A DNA stretch of 55,504 bases, from the NCBI GenBank assembly GCA_030428385.1, contig JAUIDY010000028.1:1-55504 (forward strand), written 5' to 3'. A program made the translations under genes and the position numbers. The stretch comes from Rhodothermia bacterium (lineage in GTDB: Bacteria; Bacteroidota; Rhodothermia; Rhodothermales; JAAAOL01). A model generated the notes under the pieces. The model was not told the origin of the DNA. It made no database searches and saw only the letters and a program-made list of their open reading frames with translations. How positions within the stretch are numbered: the first letter of the stretch is position 1; every line of letters begins with the position of its first letter. Below, in pieces: positions 3,219 through 11,670 of this stretch.

Positions 3219-5195
3219 TTAAGCAGTGGGATCCAACTCGGCGACGAAGGCCATGGGGGTTTTGTCATACGCTTCCCGGAACCGCTTGCTGAAATGCGAC
3301 ACGCTTTTGAACCCCACGCTGTAGGCCACCTCACTGATGGTACCCGCCCGTGCCTGCAGGCGGTGCGCCGCTTCGGCAAGGCGCATCTGCCAGATCAAGT
3401 CCATCGGCGATTGGTCAATCAGCCCTTTGAAGCGGCGGTAGAGCGACGCCCGGCTTTGCCCCAACGCAGCGGCAAGTTCCTGCACGCCAAAGCCTTCGTC
3501 TGCAAGGTGGGTTGTAATTACGGCATGTACTTCTTCCAAGAAGGCTTCATCGGCAGAAGAGACCGGGGCCGTCGTTGGAAAGGCAAACGGAGCGGCTTCC
3601 TGTGCGTAGCGGCTGCGCAACTGGCGGCGGAGCGCGATCAGGTTTTCGATGCGGACTTCCAACTCCCGCACATGAAACGGCTTCGTCATGTAGGCGTCGG
3701 CTCCCGTTTCCAGCCCGGAGAGCTTGCTATCCATCGACGCCTTGGCGGTGAGCAAAATCACGGGGATAAAGTCCAGTTCGGGGTGCGTCTTGATGGCATG
3801 GCAGAGGGCAAAGCCGTCCATTTCGGGCATCATCACATCGCTGACGATGAGGTCGGGAATCACCTCCACCGCCACGGCCAACGCTTCCTGTCCATTCGCT
3901 GCCTCCACCACGCGGTACTGCTTTTCCAAATGACGCTGCACATAGGCGCGGACCTGCGGGTTGTCGTCAACCACCAGCACCGTCGTGGCGTCTTCGCCCG
4001 GTGCAGCGTTGGCAACTACAGCGACGTCCCCTCGCTCTTGTACCGGTTCATCCGAGAGTACCACTTCACCGATCAGGCTCGCCTCAGCAAGCGGCCTCGG
4101 ACGTTGTGCAAAGGTTGACGGTGGCGCTGATTGGAGTTCCTCTCCAGAATAATACGCCGTGCCCACCGGCAAGCGTATCGTAAACGTGGCTCCTTCGCCC
4201 GGGGTGCTGGCTACCTCAATGGTGCCATGGTGGAGCGTCACCAACTCATGCACCAGCGCCAATCCAATCCCCGTCCCCGACTGCTGGCGGGTGGACGAGT
4301 CATCGGCCTGGTAAAAACGTTCGAACAGATGCGGCAGGTGGGTTGGATCGATGCCGGGGCCAGTATCCTGAACCACGATTGCTAGCCAGCCCTCCTCCCC
4401 GGCCTCACCATCGGGAAAGAGACGCACGGCGATGTGTTGCCCCTGTGGCGTAAACTTGAAGGCATTGCCAAGCAAATTGCCCATGACCTTTTCCATCTGG
4501 TCGACATCGAAATACGCCACCACCGTTTCCTCCGGAACGGTCACCTCAAAATCGATGTGTTTGTGGGCCGCCATCGACATGAAGCGTTGTGTGATGCCCT
4601 CGATAAAAGCGGCCACATCCACTGGTTTTGCATGCAGCGTCAGGCGGCCTGCCTCCAGCCGGGCAATGTCGAGCAGTTGATTCACCAGAAGCAGCAACCG
4701 CTGGCTGTTCTCTACCGCCAGGCTGACCAGTTCTTCGGCCTCGGGGTCCAACGCGCCGTAGTCGCCTTCCAGCATGTCTTCGAGCGGGCCTACGATCAGC
4801 GTCAGCGGGGTGCGAAACTCATGGCTGACGTTGGCAAAAAAGCGGGTCTTTGCGCGATCCAGCGACTTAAGTTCAGCCTGCGCGGCTTGCAGTTGTGCAT
4901 GGGTCTCGCGGAGTTCGGTGTGGGCTTCTTGCAACACCTGGTGGGCCCGTTCGCGCTCTTTTTGAAGCAACCGCCGCCGCTGCACCCGGTCGATGGCCCC
5001 AATTCCGATGAGGGCAAACAGCCCATAGCAGACATAGGCCCAGGTCGTACGCCACCAGGGCGGGCGCACCGTCACCCGTACCGATGCGCCGTCTTCATTC
5101 CACACGCCATCGCTGTTGGCGGCCCTCACCCGAAAGATAAAGTTGCCCGGCGGCAGGTTGGTATACGTCGCCTCGCGGAGCGTCCCTACCTCGCG
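3219..5195 (-). CDS. hybrid two-component regulator, C-terminal half (kinase-receiver-AraC), downstream of in-frame TGA
   Basis: The output half of a hybrid two-component system (HTCS). Reading on from the TGA at 5196-5198 in the same frame gives the end of the Y_Y_Y domain, one membrane span (TWAYVCYGLFALIGIGAI), a coiled linker, then the kinase. Numbered from the GTG at 5129, H103 (NVSHEFRTPLT) is the phosphorylated His; N218/N222, DTGPGI and GTGIGLALV form the ATPase site; a receiver has D388/D389, phospho-acceptor D431 and K483; an AraC-type helix-turn-helix pair occupies about 530-630. The piece has no credible start of its own: the GTG at 5129 is simply the Val of FRVRAANSDG. As sequenced, DNA binding and kinase are uncoupled from the sensor. 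It is a pseudogene half unless the stop is read through or is a base error. Confidence 0.88.
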   Translation of the reverse strand, partial: REVGTLREATYTNLPPGNFIFRVRAANSDGVWNEDGASVRVTVRPPWWRTTWAYVCYGLFALIGIGAIDRVQRRRLLQKERERAHQVLQEAHTELRETHAQLQAAQAELKSLDRAKTRFFANVSHEFRTPLTLIVGPLEDMLEGDYGALDPEAEELVSLAVENSQRLLLLVNQLLDIARLEAGRLTLHAKPVDVAAFIEGITQRFMSMAAHKHIDFEVTVPEETVVAYFDVDQMEKVMGNLLGNAFKFTPQGQHIAVRLFPDGEAGEEGWLAIVVQDTGPGIDPTHLPHLFERFYQADDSSTRQQSGTGIGLALVHELVTLHHGTIEVASTPGEGATFTIRLPVGTAYYSGEELQSAPPSTFAQRPRPLAEASLIGEVVLSDEPVQERGDVAVVANAAPGEDATTVLVVDDNPQVRAYVQRHLEKQYRVVEAANGQEALAVAVEVIPDLIVSDVMMPEMDGFALCHAIKTHPELDFIPVILLTAKASMDSKLSGLETGADAYMTKPFHVRELEVRIENLIALRRQLRSRYAQEAAPFAFPTTAPVSSADEAFLEEVHAVITTHLADEGFGVQELAAALGQSRASLYRRFKGLIDQSPMDLIWQMRLAEAAHRLQARAGTISEVAYSVGFKSVSHFSKRFREAYDKTPMAFVAELDPTA

Positions 5196-5198
5196 TCA
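5196..5198 (-). other. in-frame TGA replacing a conserved Trp codon
   Basis: On the minus strand the codons read GAA GAC GCC TGA CGC GAG, that is LEGYEDA-stop-REVG. Frame is conserved across the stop: the kinase half continues 22 codons later in the same register. Y_Y_Y domains have an almost invariant Trp at exactly this place (pattern LxGxxxxW, then YTNLPPG). One C-to-T change at plus-strand position 5196 turns TGG into TGA. Confidence 0.9.
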
Positions 5199-7595
5199 GG
5201 CGTCTTCGTACCCTTCGAGGATGTACTGGTACTGGTTATGCGTGGGATCGGCAAAATGAAGCCCCACATATTCGAACGTCACATCGTTTTCGTCATGACG
5301 CAGCGTCAACTGTTCGGTTTTTGAAAGCCGCTCCTGAAGGGGCGAATCGCCGCCAACGGAGACCGGTTCATTGTAGAGCCGCAGGCGGGTCAGGCTCACC
5401 TCTGGAGGATGGGGATTGTCGTACAGGGCATCGGGGGAAAACGCATTGATGCCGCCGGGGCCTCCAAAAAACATCTCGCCGCTATGGCGGCTTTGATGAT
5501 AGGCCCACGAGTTAAACGCCAGCCCCTGGATGCCGTCGTCGGTGTTATAGTTGGTAAACGTTTCCGTGGTGGGGTCGAAGCGGGAGAGACCCTTGTCGGT
5601 GCTCATCCACACCCGTCCCTGGGCATCACACAGCAACCCTTGCACCCCGTTGTCGGGCAAGTCGCTGTTTTGCACGGTGAAATGTGTGAAGGTCTCCGTG
5701 TCCTTTTGTAAGCGCCTGAGCCCGCCGCTGTAGGCAGCCACCCAGAGCCACTCGGGGTGCTGGGTGGTTTCGCAGATTCCGAAGATCATGGAACTGGAAA
5801 GGCTGCCCGATTCGTCGGGATTGGGGCGGTAGTTGCGCGTCGTCTCCGTGGCGGGATCAAAGCGATAGAGCCCGCCCCGTGTGGTGCCGATCCATAGCAG
5901 CCCGGCCTGATCCTCGTAGATACTGTTTACATACCCATGATCGCTCTCAAACGGGAACCGCGAAAAGCGCCCCTGCGCCCGGTCCTCCATGCGGCTGAGG
6001 CCGAAGTTGCGCGTGCCTACCCAGAGCGACCCCGCCCGGTCCTCATACAGGCTAATGACCCGCCCCGGCGGCAAGCTTTCGGGGTCCTCGGGGTCGTGCT
6101 GAAAATGAATAAAATACCCTGGTCGTTCAGGGTCCATCCGACTCAGGGTGTTCTCGCCGCCTCCGGTCCATACGGCCCCTTGTTCATCAACCAGTACGGG
6201 AAACCCGTTGCGAAGGCTATGCGGATCGTTGGGATCGGGCTGAAAAAACTGGTACGTGTCGTTCTGGCGATCCAGGCGATGCAGTGTCCGTGTTTCTTCA
6301 TTTCCGGAGGTAACCCATAAGGCCCCATCCGGCGCGTCCGAAATACTCCAGGTGAAACTGTCGCGCAGGCTGTTCGGGTCACCCAGCCGCGCATAGATAT
6401 GCTCAAACGACCGGGACGCCCGGTCGACCCGGTCGAGAGTGCCGTCCATGCTTGCAATCCATAGAATGCCCTGCCGGTCGATGTACACGGTGGACACCTC
6501 GTTGCTACTCAGGCTGTGGGGGTCGAAGAGATCCTGCTGAAAAGCCACAGAAGTCCCTGATGCGGGATCGATCCAGAAGAGTCCGTCCTGATGGGTCCCT
6601 ACCCACAGCCCGCCCTCCGCATCGCTGGTGATGTCCCACACGATATCGGCATTAAACGGGATGCCGTTGTTGTCCCAACTCACCGCCGGGAGCAGGTCCC
6701 TCACGTCGCGGGGATCGTTGCGGTAATTGATGAAGGTGTTCGTCTCCGGTGCAAAACGATAAACGCCCCCCCGTTCCGTCCCCACCCACAACCTACCGGC
6801 GGCGTCCTCGTGGAGCGCCCACACCACATTCACGAAGGTATCGGCATCGTCGCGTTCGAACGTAGGCGCTTCGGGAAAAAGCAGCAGGGTGGAAAACGTT
6901 TCGGTGGTGGGATCAAAGCGGTTCACGCCCCACGAGCCCACCCACAACGTGCCGTGCTGGTCCGCCAGCAGGCTTCGAATCCAGTTGTGCGTTCGGCTTG
7001 ACGCATCGAGGTAGTACCGCGTAAAGGTTTCGGTGGCGGGATCGAAGCGGTTCAGGCCGTGGCGGGTCCCCACCCAAAGCGATCCGGCCCCATCCTCCAC
7101 GATGACATGAATGCTGTCGTTGCTGATGGTCGTGGGGTCGGCAGGATCATGCTGAAAGCGGGTGAAAGTCTCGGCCTCCCGGTCGAAACGGTTCAGGCCG
7201 CCTCCTTGTGTCCCCACCCACAGGGTCCCGGCGCGGTCCTCAAACAGGGCCCGGATCTGGTTTTTACCCAGGCTGGTGGTATCGTCGGGAGCATGGATAT
7301 ACTGCTGGTGGGTGTAGCCGTCAAACTTGAACAGCCCGGTGCCGCGTTGCCCCAGCCACAGGAACCCTTCATGATCCTGCAGGATGGCCGTTGTTTGATT
7401 AAAAGGATGGGTGGCCAGGTGTTCGAACTGCAGGCGTGAAGGCGGGGGCGTGGATTCGAGTGAAGGGGACGGCTGGGCATGCACCACCACCGCCATGAGC
7501 ATGCTTAGAACAATGCCGGGACCAAGGCCGCCTCCCCACCAGGACACCGAGCGACACCCCTTTGCCCATATAACGATGCGGCCTCCCTGTTTCAT
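5196..7595 (-). CDS. hybrid two-component regulator, N-terminal sensory half (Reg_prop propeller)
   Basis: The periplasmic sensor part of an HTCS regulator. After a signal/anchor segment (hydrophobic stretch up to AVVVHAQ) come many two-component-propeller repeats of the form LWVGTxxGLNRFDPATETFT, giving two seven-bladed propellers over about 700 residues, then the start of a Y_Y_Y domain that stops at LEGYEDA. Such propellers bind oligosaccharides in characterised Bacteroides HTCS proteins. The ATG at 7595 (MKQGGRIV) is preferred to the one at 7628. Together with the downstream half the full gene would run 7595 to 3219, about 1458 codons, normal for the family. No SusC/SusD genes flank it; the closest polysaccharide genes are the GH10 xylanase and esterase 2 kb upstream, so a xylan-related signal is only a guess. 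Confidence 0.88.
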   Translation of the reverse strand: MKQGGRIVIWAKGCRSVSWWGGGLGPGIVLSMLMAVVVHAQPSPSLESTPPPSRLQFEHLATHPFNQTTAILQDHEGFLWLGQRGTGLFKFDGYTHQQYIHAPDDTTSLGKNQIRALFEDRAGTLWVGTQGGGLNRFDREAETFTRFQHDPADPTTISNDSIHVIVEDGAGSLWVGTRHGLNRFDPATETFTRYYLDASSRTHNWIRSLLADQHGTLWVGSWGVNRFDPTTETFSTLLLFPEAPTFERDDADTFVNVVWALHEDAAGRLWVGTERGGVYRFAPETNTFINYRNDPRDVRDLLPAVSWDNNGIPFNADIVWDITSDAEGGLWVGTHQDGLFWIDPASGTSVAFQQDLFDPHSLSSNEVSTVYIDRQGILWIASMDGTLDRVDRASRSFEHIYARLGDPNSLRDSFTWSISDAPDGALWVTSGNEETRTLHRLDRQNDTYQFFQPDPNDPHSLRNGFPVLVDEQGAVWTGGGENTLSRMDPERPGYFIHFQHDPEDPESLPPGRVISLYEDRAGSLWVGTRNFGLSRMEDRAQGRFSRFPFESDHGYVNSIYEDQAGLLWIGTTRGGLYRFDPATETTRNYRPNPDESGSLSSSMIFGICETTQHPEWLWVAAYSGGLRRLQKDTETFTHFTVQNSDLPDNGVQGLLCDAQGRVWMSTDKGLSRFDPTTETFTNYNTDDGIQGLAFNSWAYHQSRHSGEMFFGGPGGINAFSPDALYDNPHPPEVSLTRLRLYNEPVSVGGDSPLQERLSKTEQLTLRHDENDVTFEYVGLHFADPTHNQYQYILEGYEDA

Positions 7596-9465: not shown

Positions 9466-10638
9466 TTACTCCAAGGACGCAGGCACGCGCAGCACGGCAT
9501 CGACGGCAGGTTTGGGCTGCCGGTCGCGGGTGAACAGCAGTGGGTAGTTGGTGCGGTTGGGCACGGGGTAGCCATTCTTCCACGACATGCCATCGTGTAC
9601 ACCCCACAGCGTCACCCGGTCGATTTTGTCGCGTTTGCGGTAGAAGATCTCAAAAATCTCGGCATAGCGGTCGGCGAGGGCTTGCTCCATGTCGGCGGGG
9701 AGGCCGTCGGCGTAGGGGTCGAGGAATTCCTTAAACTCCTCCAACTGAAACTGCGGATGGCCCATCGCCTGCCCGATAATCTGGCCTTCCTTGGTGAGCG
9801 GCAGCACGTCCACGTCCAGTTCGGTAATCATCACCTTCACGCCCAGCGTGGCGAACGAGTCGATGGCGGCTTCGATGTATTCGTTTTTGGGGTAGTTAAG
9901 CCCCCAGTGACCCTGGATGCCCACGCCATCGATGCGAACGCCTTCAGCCTGCAACATCCGCACGAGCCGCATAATACCGTCGCGCTTGGCGGGCCGCCAC
10001 GCGTTGAAGTCGTTGTAATACAGTTCCGCGTTGGGCGCATACTCGCTGGCAAACCGGAAGGCTTCCTTGACCAGCAAGTCGCCATCGCCCACGCCGTTGA
10101 CCCACGTCGTCGGGCGGTACGAACCGTCGTTGTCGATAACTTCGTTGACCACGTCCCACGCATGGATGCGTCCAGCATAACGCCCCGCCACCGTCTCGAT
10201 GTGGCTACGCATCCGCTCGATCTGGGCGGTGGGGGTGTTGGGGTTGCCGTTGGCGTCCTGGAAAAACCACGCGGGCGTCTGGTTATGCCACACCAGCGTG
10301 TGCCCGATGATAAACAGGTCGTGCGCCTCGCCAAAATCCACGAAGGCGTCGGCAGGGCCGTAGTTATAAACACCCGGCTCCGGGTTGATCGGCCCGGCCT
10401 TCAGGACGTTCTCGGAAGTGATGGTGTTGAAGTGTTCGAGCACGACGGCCTGCGTCGCCGAATCGGCCCCGGTGACGATGCCGCCATTTACGGCGGTTCC
10501 GATCATAAAAGCGCCGTCATACGCAGCCTTAAGCGTTGAGGCAGCAGGCGGAGCGGTGGGGGCGGGAGTGTCGGTGGCCGAAGGCGTACAGCCCACAAGA
10601 AAAACAAGGAGCGCGACAAGGACGGAGGCGGTTTTCAT
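9466..10638 (-). CDS. GH10 endo-1,4-beta-xylanase, lipoprotein
   Basis: A retaining endo-xylanase of glycoside hydrolase family 10 that cuts the beta-1,4-xylose backbone of xylan. From the ATG at 10638 it has a lipoprotein signal (MKTASVLVALLVFLVGC, lipid Cys about 17), a Thr/Ala/Pro linker, and one GH10 barrel. The barrel shows SENVLKAGPINPEPGVYNY, HTLVWHNQTPAWFF, the acid/base E166 in WDVVNEVIDN, YYNDFN, GIQGHWGL and the nucleophile E273 in ITELDVDV, then TLWGVHDGMSW near the C-terminus. A start at 10728 is open but would bury the lipoprotein signal. It follows a secreted esterase on the same strand after 123 bp, so the two probably serve xylan breakdown together, with the xylanase held on the cell envelope. 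Confidence 0.95.
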   Translation of the reverse strand: MKTASVLVALLVFLVGCTPSATDTPAPTAPPAASTLKAAYDGAFMIGTAVNGGIVTGADSATQAVVLEHFNTITSENVLKAGPINPEPGVYNYGPADAFVDFGEAHDLFIIGHTLVWHNQTPAWFFQDANGNPNTPTAQIERMRSHIETVAGRYAGRIHAWDVVNEVIDNDGSYRPTTWVNGVGDGDLLVKEAFRFASEYAPNAELYYNDFNAWRPAKRDGIMRLVRMLQAEGVRIDGVGIQGHWGLNYPKNEYIEAAIDSFATLGVKVMITELDVDVLPLTKEGQIIGQAMGHPQFQLEEFKEFLDPYADGLPADMEQALADRYAEIFEIFYRKRDKIDRVTLWGVHDGMSWKNGYPVPNRTNYPLLFTRDRQPKPAVDAVLRVPASLE

Positions 10639-10761
10639 AGGGGTGAGGCGGGGCGGGTGGGTGGATGGATGCCGAGCGCCCCGCAAAATAGCCGCCCGTG
10701 TTGCGAAAGTCCACCACCAACAAAGCAAGCGGTCGTCAGATTACTTGTACCCGGAGCCTTT

Positions 10762-11670
10762 TCAGTCGCCTGTTTCCACCGTCCGGCGCAGCCAGTTTTC
10801 GGCGAGCCCCTTCCACCCATGCGAAGCCGACTCCTCGGACAAGGCGTATCCGTGCCCGCCCTGTTCAAACACATGCAGTTCAGCCGCCACACCGTTCGCC
10901 TTGAGGGCGGTGTAGAGGTTGATGCTGTTAAACGGGTGCACCACCGCGTCATCGCTGGAGTGGATGAGGAAGGTTGGCGGGGTGTCGGCGGTCACACGTA
11001 GGTGGTTGGAGAAGCGTCCTTTCTGCGCGTCCGTGGCTTCCTCGCCCAGTAGGCCCCGCTGCGAGCCGCCGTGGGTGTAGTCATCCTGCATCGTGACCAC
11101 GGGATACACCAGCACCATAAAGTCGGGGCGGTTGCTTTGGTCGAGGTGGTCGCCTTTGCCGCTGGAGAAATCCTGTGCGAAGTGCGTGCCGATGGTGGAG
11201 GACAGATGCCCGCCTGCCGAGAAGCCTAAAATCCCAACCTTGTTGGGGTCGATGTTCCATGCCTCGGCGCGGCTGCGCATCAGCCGGAGCGCCTGCTGGG
11301 CGTCTTGAATCGGCACGGCGTGATGCCCGTTGGGCAGGCGGTATTTTAAGACGCCCGCCGTAAAGCCTTGCCCCGCCAGCCACTCGGCGATGGCGGCCCC
11401 CTCGTGGTTCTGGCACACGACCGAGTAGCCTCCGCCCGGCACCACCAACACCGCCGCGCCCAGCGCCGCCGCCGCGTCCGGCTGATACACGGTCAGCGTC
11501 GGCTCGGTGATGTTGCCGACGCAAAAGTCGCCCGTTTCGGGGCCGGTGAGTTCGTTGGAGTCCGGCGGCCCGTCCGGCCACAAGGCGATGGTTTCCTGAG
11601 CAACCGCGTATGGGCTATTGATCGCCCATAGCACCATTCCAACCAACACGGCGAGGCGTAATGATTTCAT
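10762..11670 (-). CDS. secreted alpha/beta-hydrolase esterase, acetyl-xylan-esterase-like
   Basis: An exported alpha/beta hydrolase of 302 residues. The signal peptide is MKSLRLAVLV to AVAQ (about 25 residues). The oxyanion loop is VVPGGGYSVV, the nucleophile elbow GFSAGGH has S151, the acid is D240 or D241 (HSSDDAVV), and H273 (GGHGYAL) completes the triad. This layout fits the BD-FAE-like and acetyl-xylan esterase groups, which strip acetyl or feruloyl groups from xylan side positions. The GH10 xylanase immediately downstream supports that role but does not prove it. A TATAAT hexamer lies about 55 bp upstream of the start. A general carboxylesterase is the main alternative. Confidence 0.88.
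   Translation of the reverse strand: MKSLRLAVLVGMVLWAINSPYAVAQETIALWPDGPPDSNELTGPETGDFCVGNITEPTLTVYQPDAAAALGAAVLVVPGGGYSVVCQNHEGAAIAEWLAGQGFTAGVLKYRLPNGHHAVPIQDAQQALRLMRSRAEAWNIDPNKVGILGFSAGGHLSSTIGTHFAQDFSSGKGDHLDQSNRPDFMVLVYPVVTMQDDYTHGGSQRGLLGEEATDAQKGRFSNHLRVTADTPPTFLIHSSDDAVVHPFNSINLYTALKANGVAAELHVFEQGGHGYALSEESASHGWKGLAENWLRRTVETGD

Follow-up and report, generated by a model that had tools for sequence, protein, structure and literature searches.

A single in-frame TGA at a conserved tryptophan codon of a hybrid two-component regulator gene in a Rhodothermia bacterium

A sugar-sensing regulator gene in a Rhodothermia bacterium carries one TGA inside an otherwise open frame, raising the question of whether this codon is a real mutation, an error in the assembly or a stop that the cell reads through. 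The gene occupies positions 3219-7595, on the minus strand, of the window, i.e. the whole stretch of 55,504 nucleotides analysed here (assembly GCA_030428385.1, contig JAUIDY010000028.1). Translation of the whole frame (7595-3219) gives 1458 codons ahead of the final stop, with a sole internal stop at codon 800 (TGA, 5198-5196) between the residues ...QYILEGYEDA and REVGTLREATYTNLPPG..., and with no further stop or frameshift. A preliminary description of this DNA had reported a single in-frame TGA with the altered base at 5196, and both the count and the position agree with what we find. Codon composition is similar on either side of the stop (GC3 0.727 and 0.713), and shuffling the window gives an expectation of 0.00 for the DNA motif of the site with TGA. 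The intact frame with its one TGA is confirmed, and exceeds chance.

The domains found on the two sides of the stop are those of a hybrid two-component regulator, as had been proposed, and the expected Pfam families are matched on both sides well over the cut-off. The upstream half (7595-5199, 799 aa) includes a signal-like N-terminus with a hydrophobic stretch at residues 20-42, Reg_prop propeller repeats (169.9 bits), and the beginning of a Y_Y_Y domain. The latter (PF07495; 5255-5067) reaches 63.6 bits when it is read through the stop, with 1 TGA inside. The downstream half (5195-3219, 658 aa) holds the remainder of Y_Y_Y, a membrane segment near residue 850, HisKA (PF00512; phospho-acceptor His codon at 4823), HATPase_c (PF02518), a receiver (PF00072), and an AraC-type HTH (PF12833). 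The gene thus has the propellers and Y_Y_Y of an HTCS sensor, the latter read across the TGA, and the complete HTCS output in one frame, but not one uninterrupted polypeptide. As such, the gene sequence belongs to the HTCS family and the product as read does not. Bacteroides-type HTCS (e.g. sensor domains 4a2l and 3v9f) likewise combine propellers, Y_Y_Y, kinase, receiver, and AraC-type HTH in one frame, and their Y_Y_Y has Trp at the position where this copy has the TGA. How HTCS output domains are kept inactive is treated in the available excerpt of PMC11253607, which does not deal with stops of this kind.

Codon 800 falls on a column of Y_Y_Y that had been called near-invariant for Trp, and translation, the Pfam match, alignments, and motif counts all place the TGA there. 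The genome contains 23 Y_Y_Y matches including this one, and all 21 of the 22 others that aligned have W at the column (L032, the match that did not align, was left out of the count). The 11 relatives fetched from the order, aligned as HTCS homologues as the preliminary description had suggested, likewise all have W (11/11); of the 59 relatives drawn besides the own genome, only G001 is from the same family and none from the same genus. The alignment with the nearest solved relatives, the propeller sensors 4a2l and 3v9f, runs through the stop, and both have W at codon 800. A scan of genome contigs yielded distant homologues only (best segments 25-41% identical), and here W stands at the column in 57 of the 81 rows aligned. 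Of the other 24 rows, 21 have by eye a W one or two places earlier, which we read as an alignment slip, and 3 have none. At the DNA level, 34 of the 114 genomes of the order contain the motif of the site with TGG, 65 times in all and 7 times in the target's own genome, while the version with TGA occurs once in the 114 genomes, i.e. at the target; the motif is strict, and these counts represent a subset of all such genes. A literature search on the Y_Y_Y tryptophan found nothing concerning this residue among the papers listed. In these sequences, the column is an essentially invariant Trp.

The explanation that we consider probable, with moderate confidence, is that one of about 20 paralogous regulators has been hit very recently by a real nonsense substitution, which probably inactivates it. 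An ordinary Bacteroidota-type HTCS gene would have taken a one-base change at the conserved Y_Y_Y Trp, arising in the assembled strain or population, and the interrupted gene would be a young pseudogene allele or a strain-level polymorphism. Because 413 of the 13,113 possible single-base changes in this gene create a stop, one such event requires no special cause, and the many paralogous HTCS genes in the genome make the loss of one plausible. In the closest relative found (G006), whose contig contains 297 of the residues upstream of the stop, identity is 66% over these and 64% over 654 downstream residues; on this comparison the two halves are equally conserved, which we count in favor of a recent mutation. 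The stop lies within a domain, at a conserved column, and the remainder of the gene is intact, as in a premature-stop allele. According to the available excerpt of PMC7918605, in-frame stops are widespread among bacterial genes and for the most part do not last, and the gene resembles the polymorphisms and young pseudogenes described there in its single nonsense change, in the frame kept on both sides, and in having no sign of long persistence. It differs from the stops in that excerpt in that only one allele is visible, so its frequency and the selection after the stop are not measurable. From what is directly observed (the stop, the intact flanking frame, the conserved Trp, the isolation in our sample, and no recoding machinery among those sought) we infer that the base is real, that the mutation is recent, and that function is lost. 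The locus also has a calibration value, as a dramatic-looking stop in a perfect frame is what a single mutation or a single error produces; it looks like an ordinary case, with no new decoding trick.

The main rival is that single error, i.e. a consensus or base-calling mistake by which one base of the assembly is wrong and the gene of the living organism is intact. We hold this to be possible, though clearly less probable than a mutation. An isolated error is expected to look like a lone substitution without other lesion, and the draft assembly is fragmented (245 contigs) and may contain consensus errors. However, the consensus gives no sign of being generally poor: an internal stop is found in 1 of the 23 Y_Y_Y matches of the genome, which is the target, and in 0 of 56 ABC_tran matches. 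Stops were also flagged in 2 of 97 HATPase_c matches, one being the normal end of its gene and the other a contig-edge fragment whose frame is apparently shifted. Among matches in the relatives, flags were raised in G038, G006 (contig C392), G030, and G036; those in G038 and G006 were rejected as premature stops, being normal gene ends.

We also scanned for coding potential around stops in 35 stretches totalling 568,043 bases, or roughly 9% of a genome of 6.19 Mb, and partly picked around other HTCS genes, i.e. a nonrandom sample and no census. The scan covered 1125 same-frame stops flanked on either side by 60 or more open codons; 13 of them passed the coding filter, with the target near the top. 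For most of the other 12, a new Met lies within some 12 codons, and they resemble neighbouring genes. Two of these were checked with Pfam, by which neither looks like a split gene: one separates two EutN domains, and the other has a short-chain dehydrogenase followed by sequence without a family; the remaining 10 were assessed by eye alone. Apart from the target, no stop in the 568 kb sample was found inside a single known domain. The wider series of TGA codons at Trp positions that the preliminary description had suggested looking for does not appear, with no other clear case in these 568,043 bases, a result as compatible with a rare error as with a rare mutation. A neighbouring pair of EutN/CcmL shell-protein genes that share a frame (L134, 3760-4392; contig C101 of the same genome) is possibly a microcompartment locus.

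A stop that is real could still be leaky. In that case, a near-cognate tRNA-Trp would decode the UGA at a few per cent and give a little full-length sensor, perhaps as an expression dimmer, which we regard as unlikely, i.e. possible but unsupported. The available excerpt of PMC7918605 reports that UGA is a leaky stop in E. coli and Salmonella, where it is infrequently decoded as Trp. Trp is exactly the residue needed at codon 800, and the genome has two different tRNA-Trp(CCA) genes. The base directly 3' of the TGA is C, and C following UGA is a leaky stop context. However, no second TGA occurs at the site in the 114 genomes of the order, no other gene of this kind was identified in the 568 kb sample, and the stretch of 133 bases around and beyond the stop has no better fold than its shuffled versions (z 0.53). 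The stop is therefore neither kept in relatives nor followed by a stimulating structure, one or the other of which programmed read-through would show. ARAGORN resolves 60 Rfam tRNA matches into 57 distinct tRNAs with 41 anticodons, none of which is UCA, CUA, or UUA (two further Rfam matches are, by eye, Phe and Lys), so that no suppressor anticodon is present among them. The genome encodes both release factors, which we take to be RF1 and RF2 from their motifs; the N-terminus of RF2 is truncated by a contig end (end of C233, L153), which hides its usual frameshift site. TGA terminates 50 of 169 long frames; the target is counted among them, and some shadow frames may be as well. With these frame ends, RF2 encoded, and no UCA-anticodon tRNA, we conclude that UGA functions as a stop in this genome.

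The gene resembles the UGA decoding by tRNA-Trp with a 4-bp anticodon stem described in the available excerpt of PMC13092985 in having UGA at a Trp position, and differs in that both tRNA-Trp have 5-bp stems, RF2 is present, and the event is isolated. A suppressor tRNA, an unusual tRNA-Trp, and an RNA structure were all tested and rejected on these grounds, and read-through as a dedicated mechanism, which had been offered as one option, finds no counterpart among the components sought. It is more doubtful still that a naturally leaky TGA sets a low dose of this particular HTCS, with many soluble propeller fragments and a small number of full-length sensors that tune a polysaccharide response. 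The second, different tRNA-Trp(CCA) belongs to a cluster of 13 tRNA genes spanning about 1.6 kb of a 13 kb contig (L188; C151, 55-1602), which also includes second versions of several other tRNAs.

If the stop is a recent nonsense substitution, translation would terminate at residue 799 and leave a soluble propeller fragment that bears a signal but has no membrane anchor, no kinase, and no DNA-binding output. The preliminary description had held that the kinase and AraC output lose their sensor. This is to be corrected, as the downstream half has no start of its own and would be made only through read-through or a restart. Ahead of the phospho-acceptor His, restart codons are GTG or TTG only, with GTG from 5129 onward, and the first ATG (4775) lies past the His codon. 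Thus, the downstream kinase/AraC half is probably not made, and the regulator is most likely inactive. A split into two proteins, with an internal restart yielding a sensor-less kinase-regulator, is very improbable: the downstream frame is intact and the GTG codons precede both the membrane segment and the His, but these GTG and TTG codons lie inside the gene, where no separate start region was visible by eye, a start at 5129 would cut into Y_Y_Y, and no split homologue occurs among the 11 relatives and 21 paralogues aligned. Automatic annotation would nevertheless give two proteins where one interrupted gene stands.

Selenocysteine, or a general UGA-to-Trp code, for which only the UGA codon at a Trp column speaks, has a negligible probability and is refuted as far as a 97.65% complete draft permits, as SelA has no match in the genome, the Rfam tRNA-Sec match over the cut-off is tRNA-Leu(UAA) and the runner-up tRNA-Ser(UGA), and UGA ends many genes with RF1 and RF2 both present, i.e. 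neither loss of RF2, nor a UCA tRNA, nor a 4-bp-stem tRNA-Trp is found.

A family GH10 glycosyl hydrolase and an adjoining BD-FAE-type esterase (9469-11670, minus strand) lie some 2-4 kb upstream of the regulator gene, and the pair may link it to xylan.
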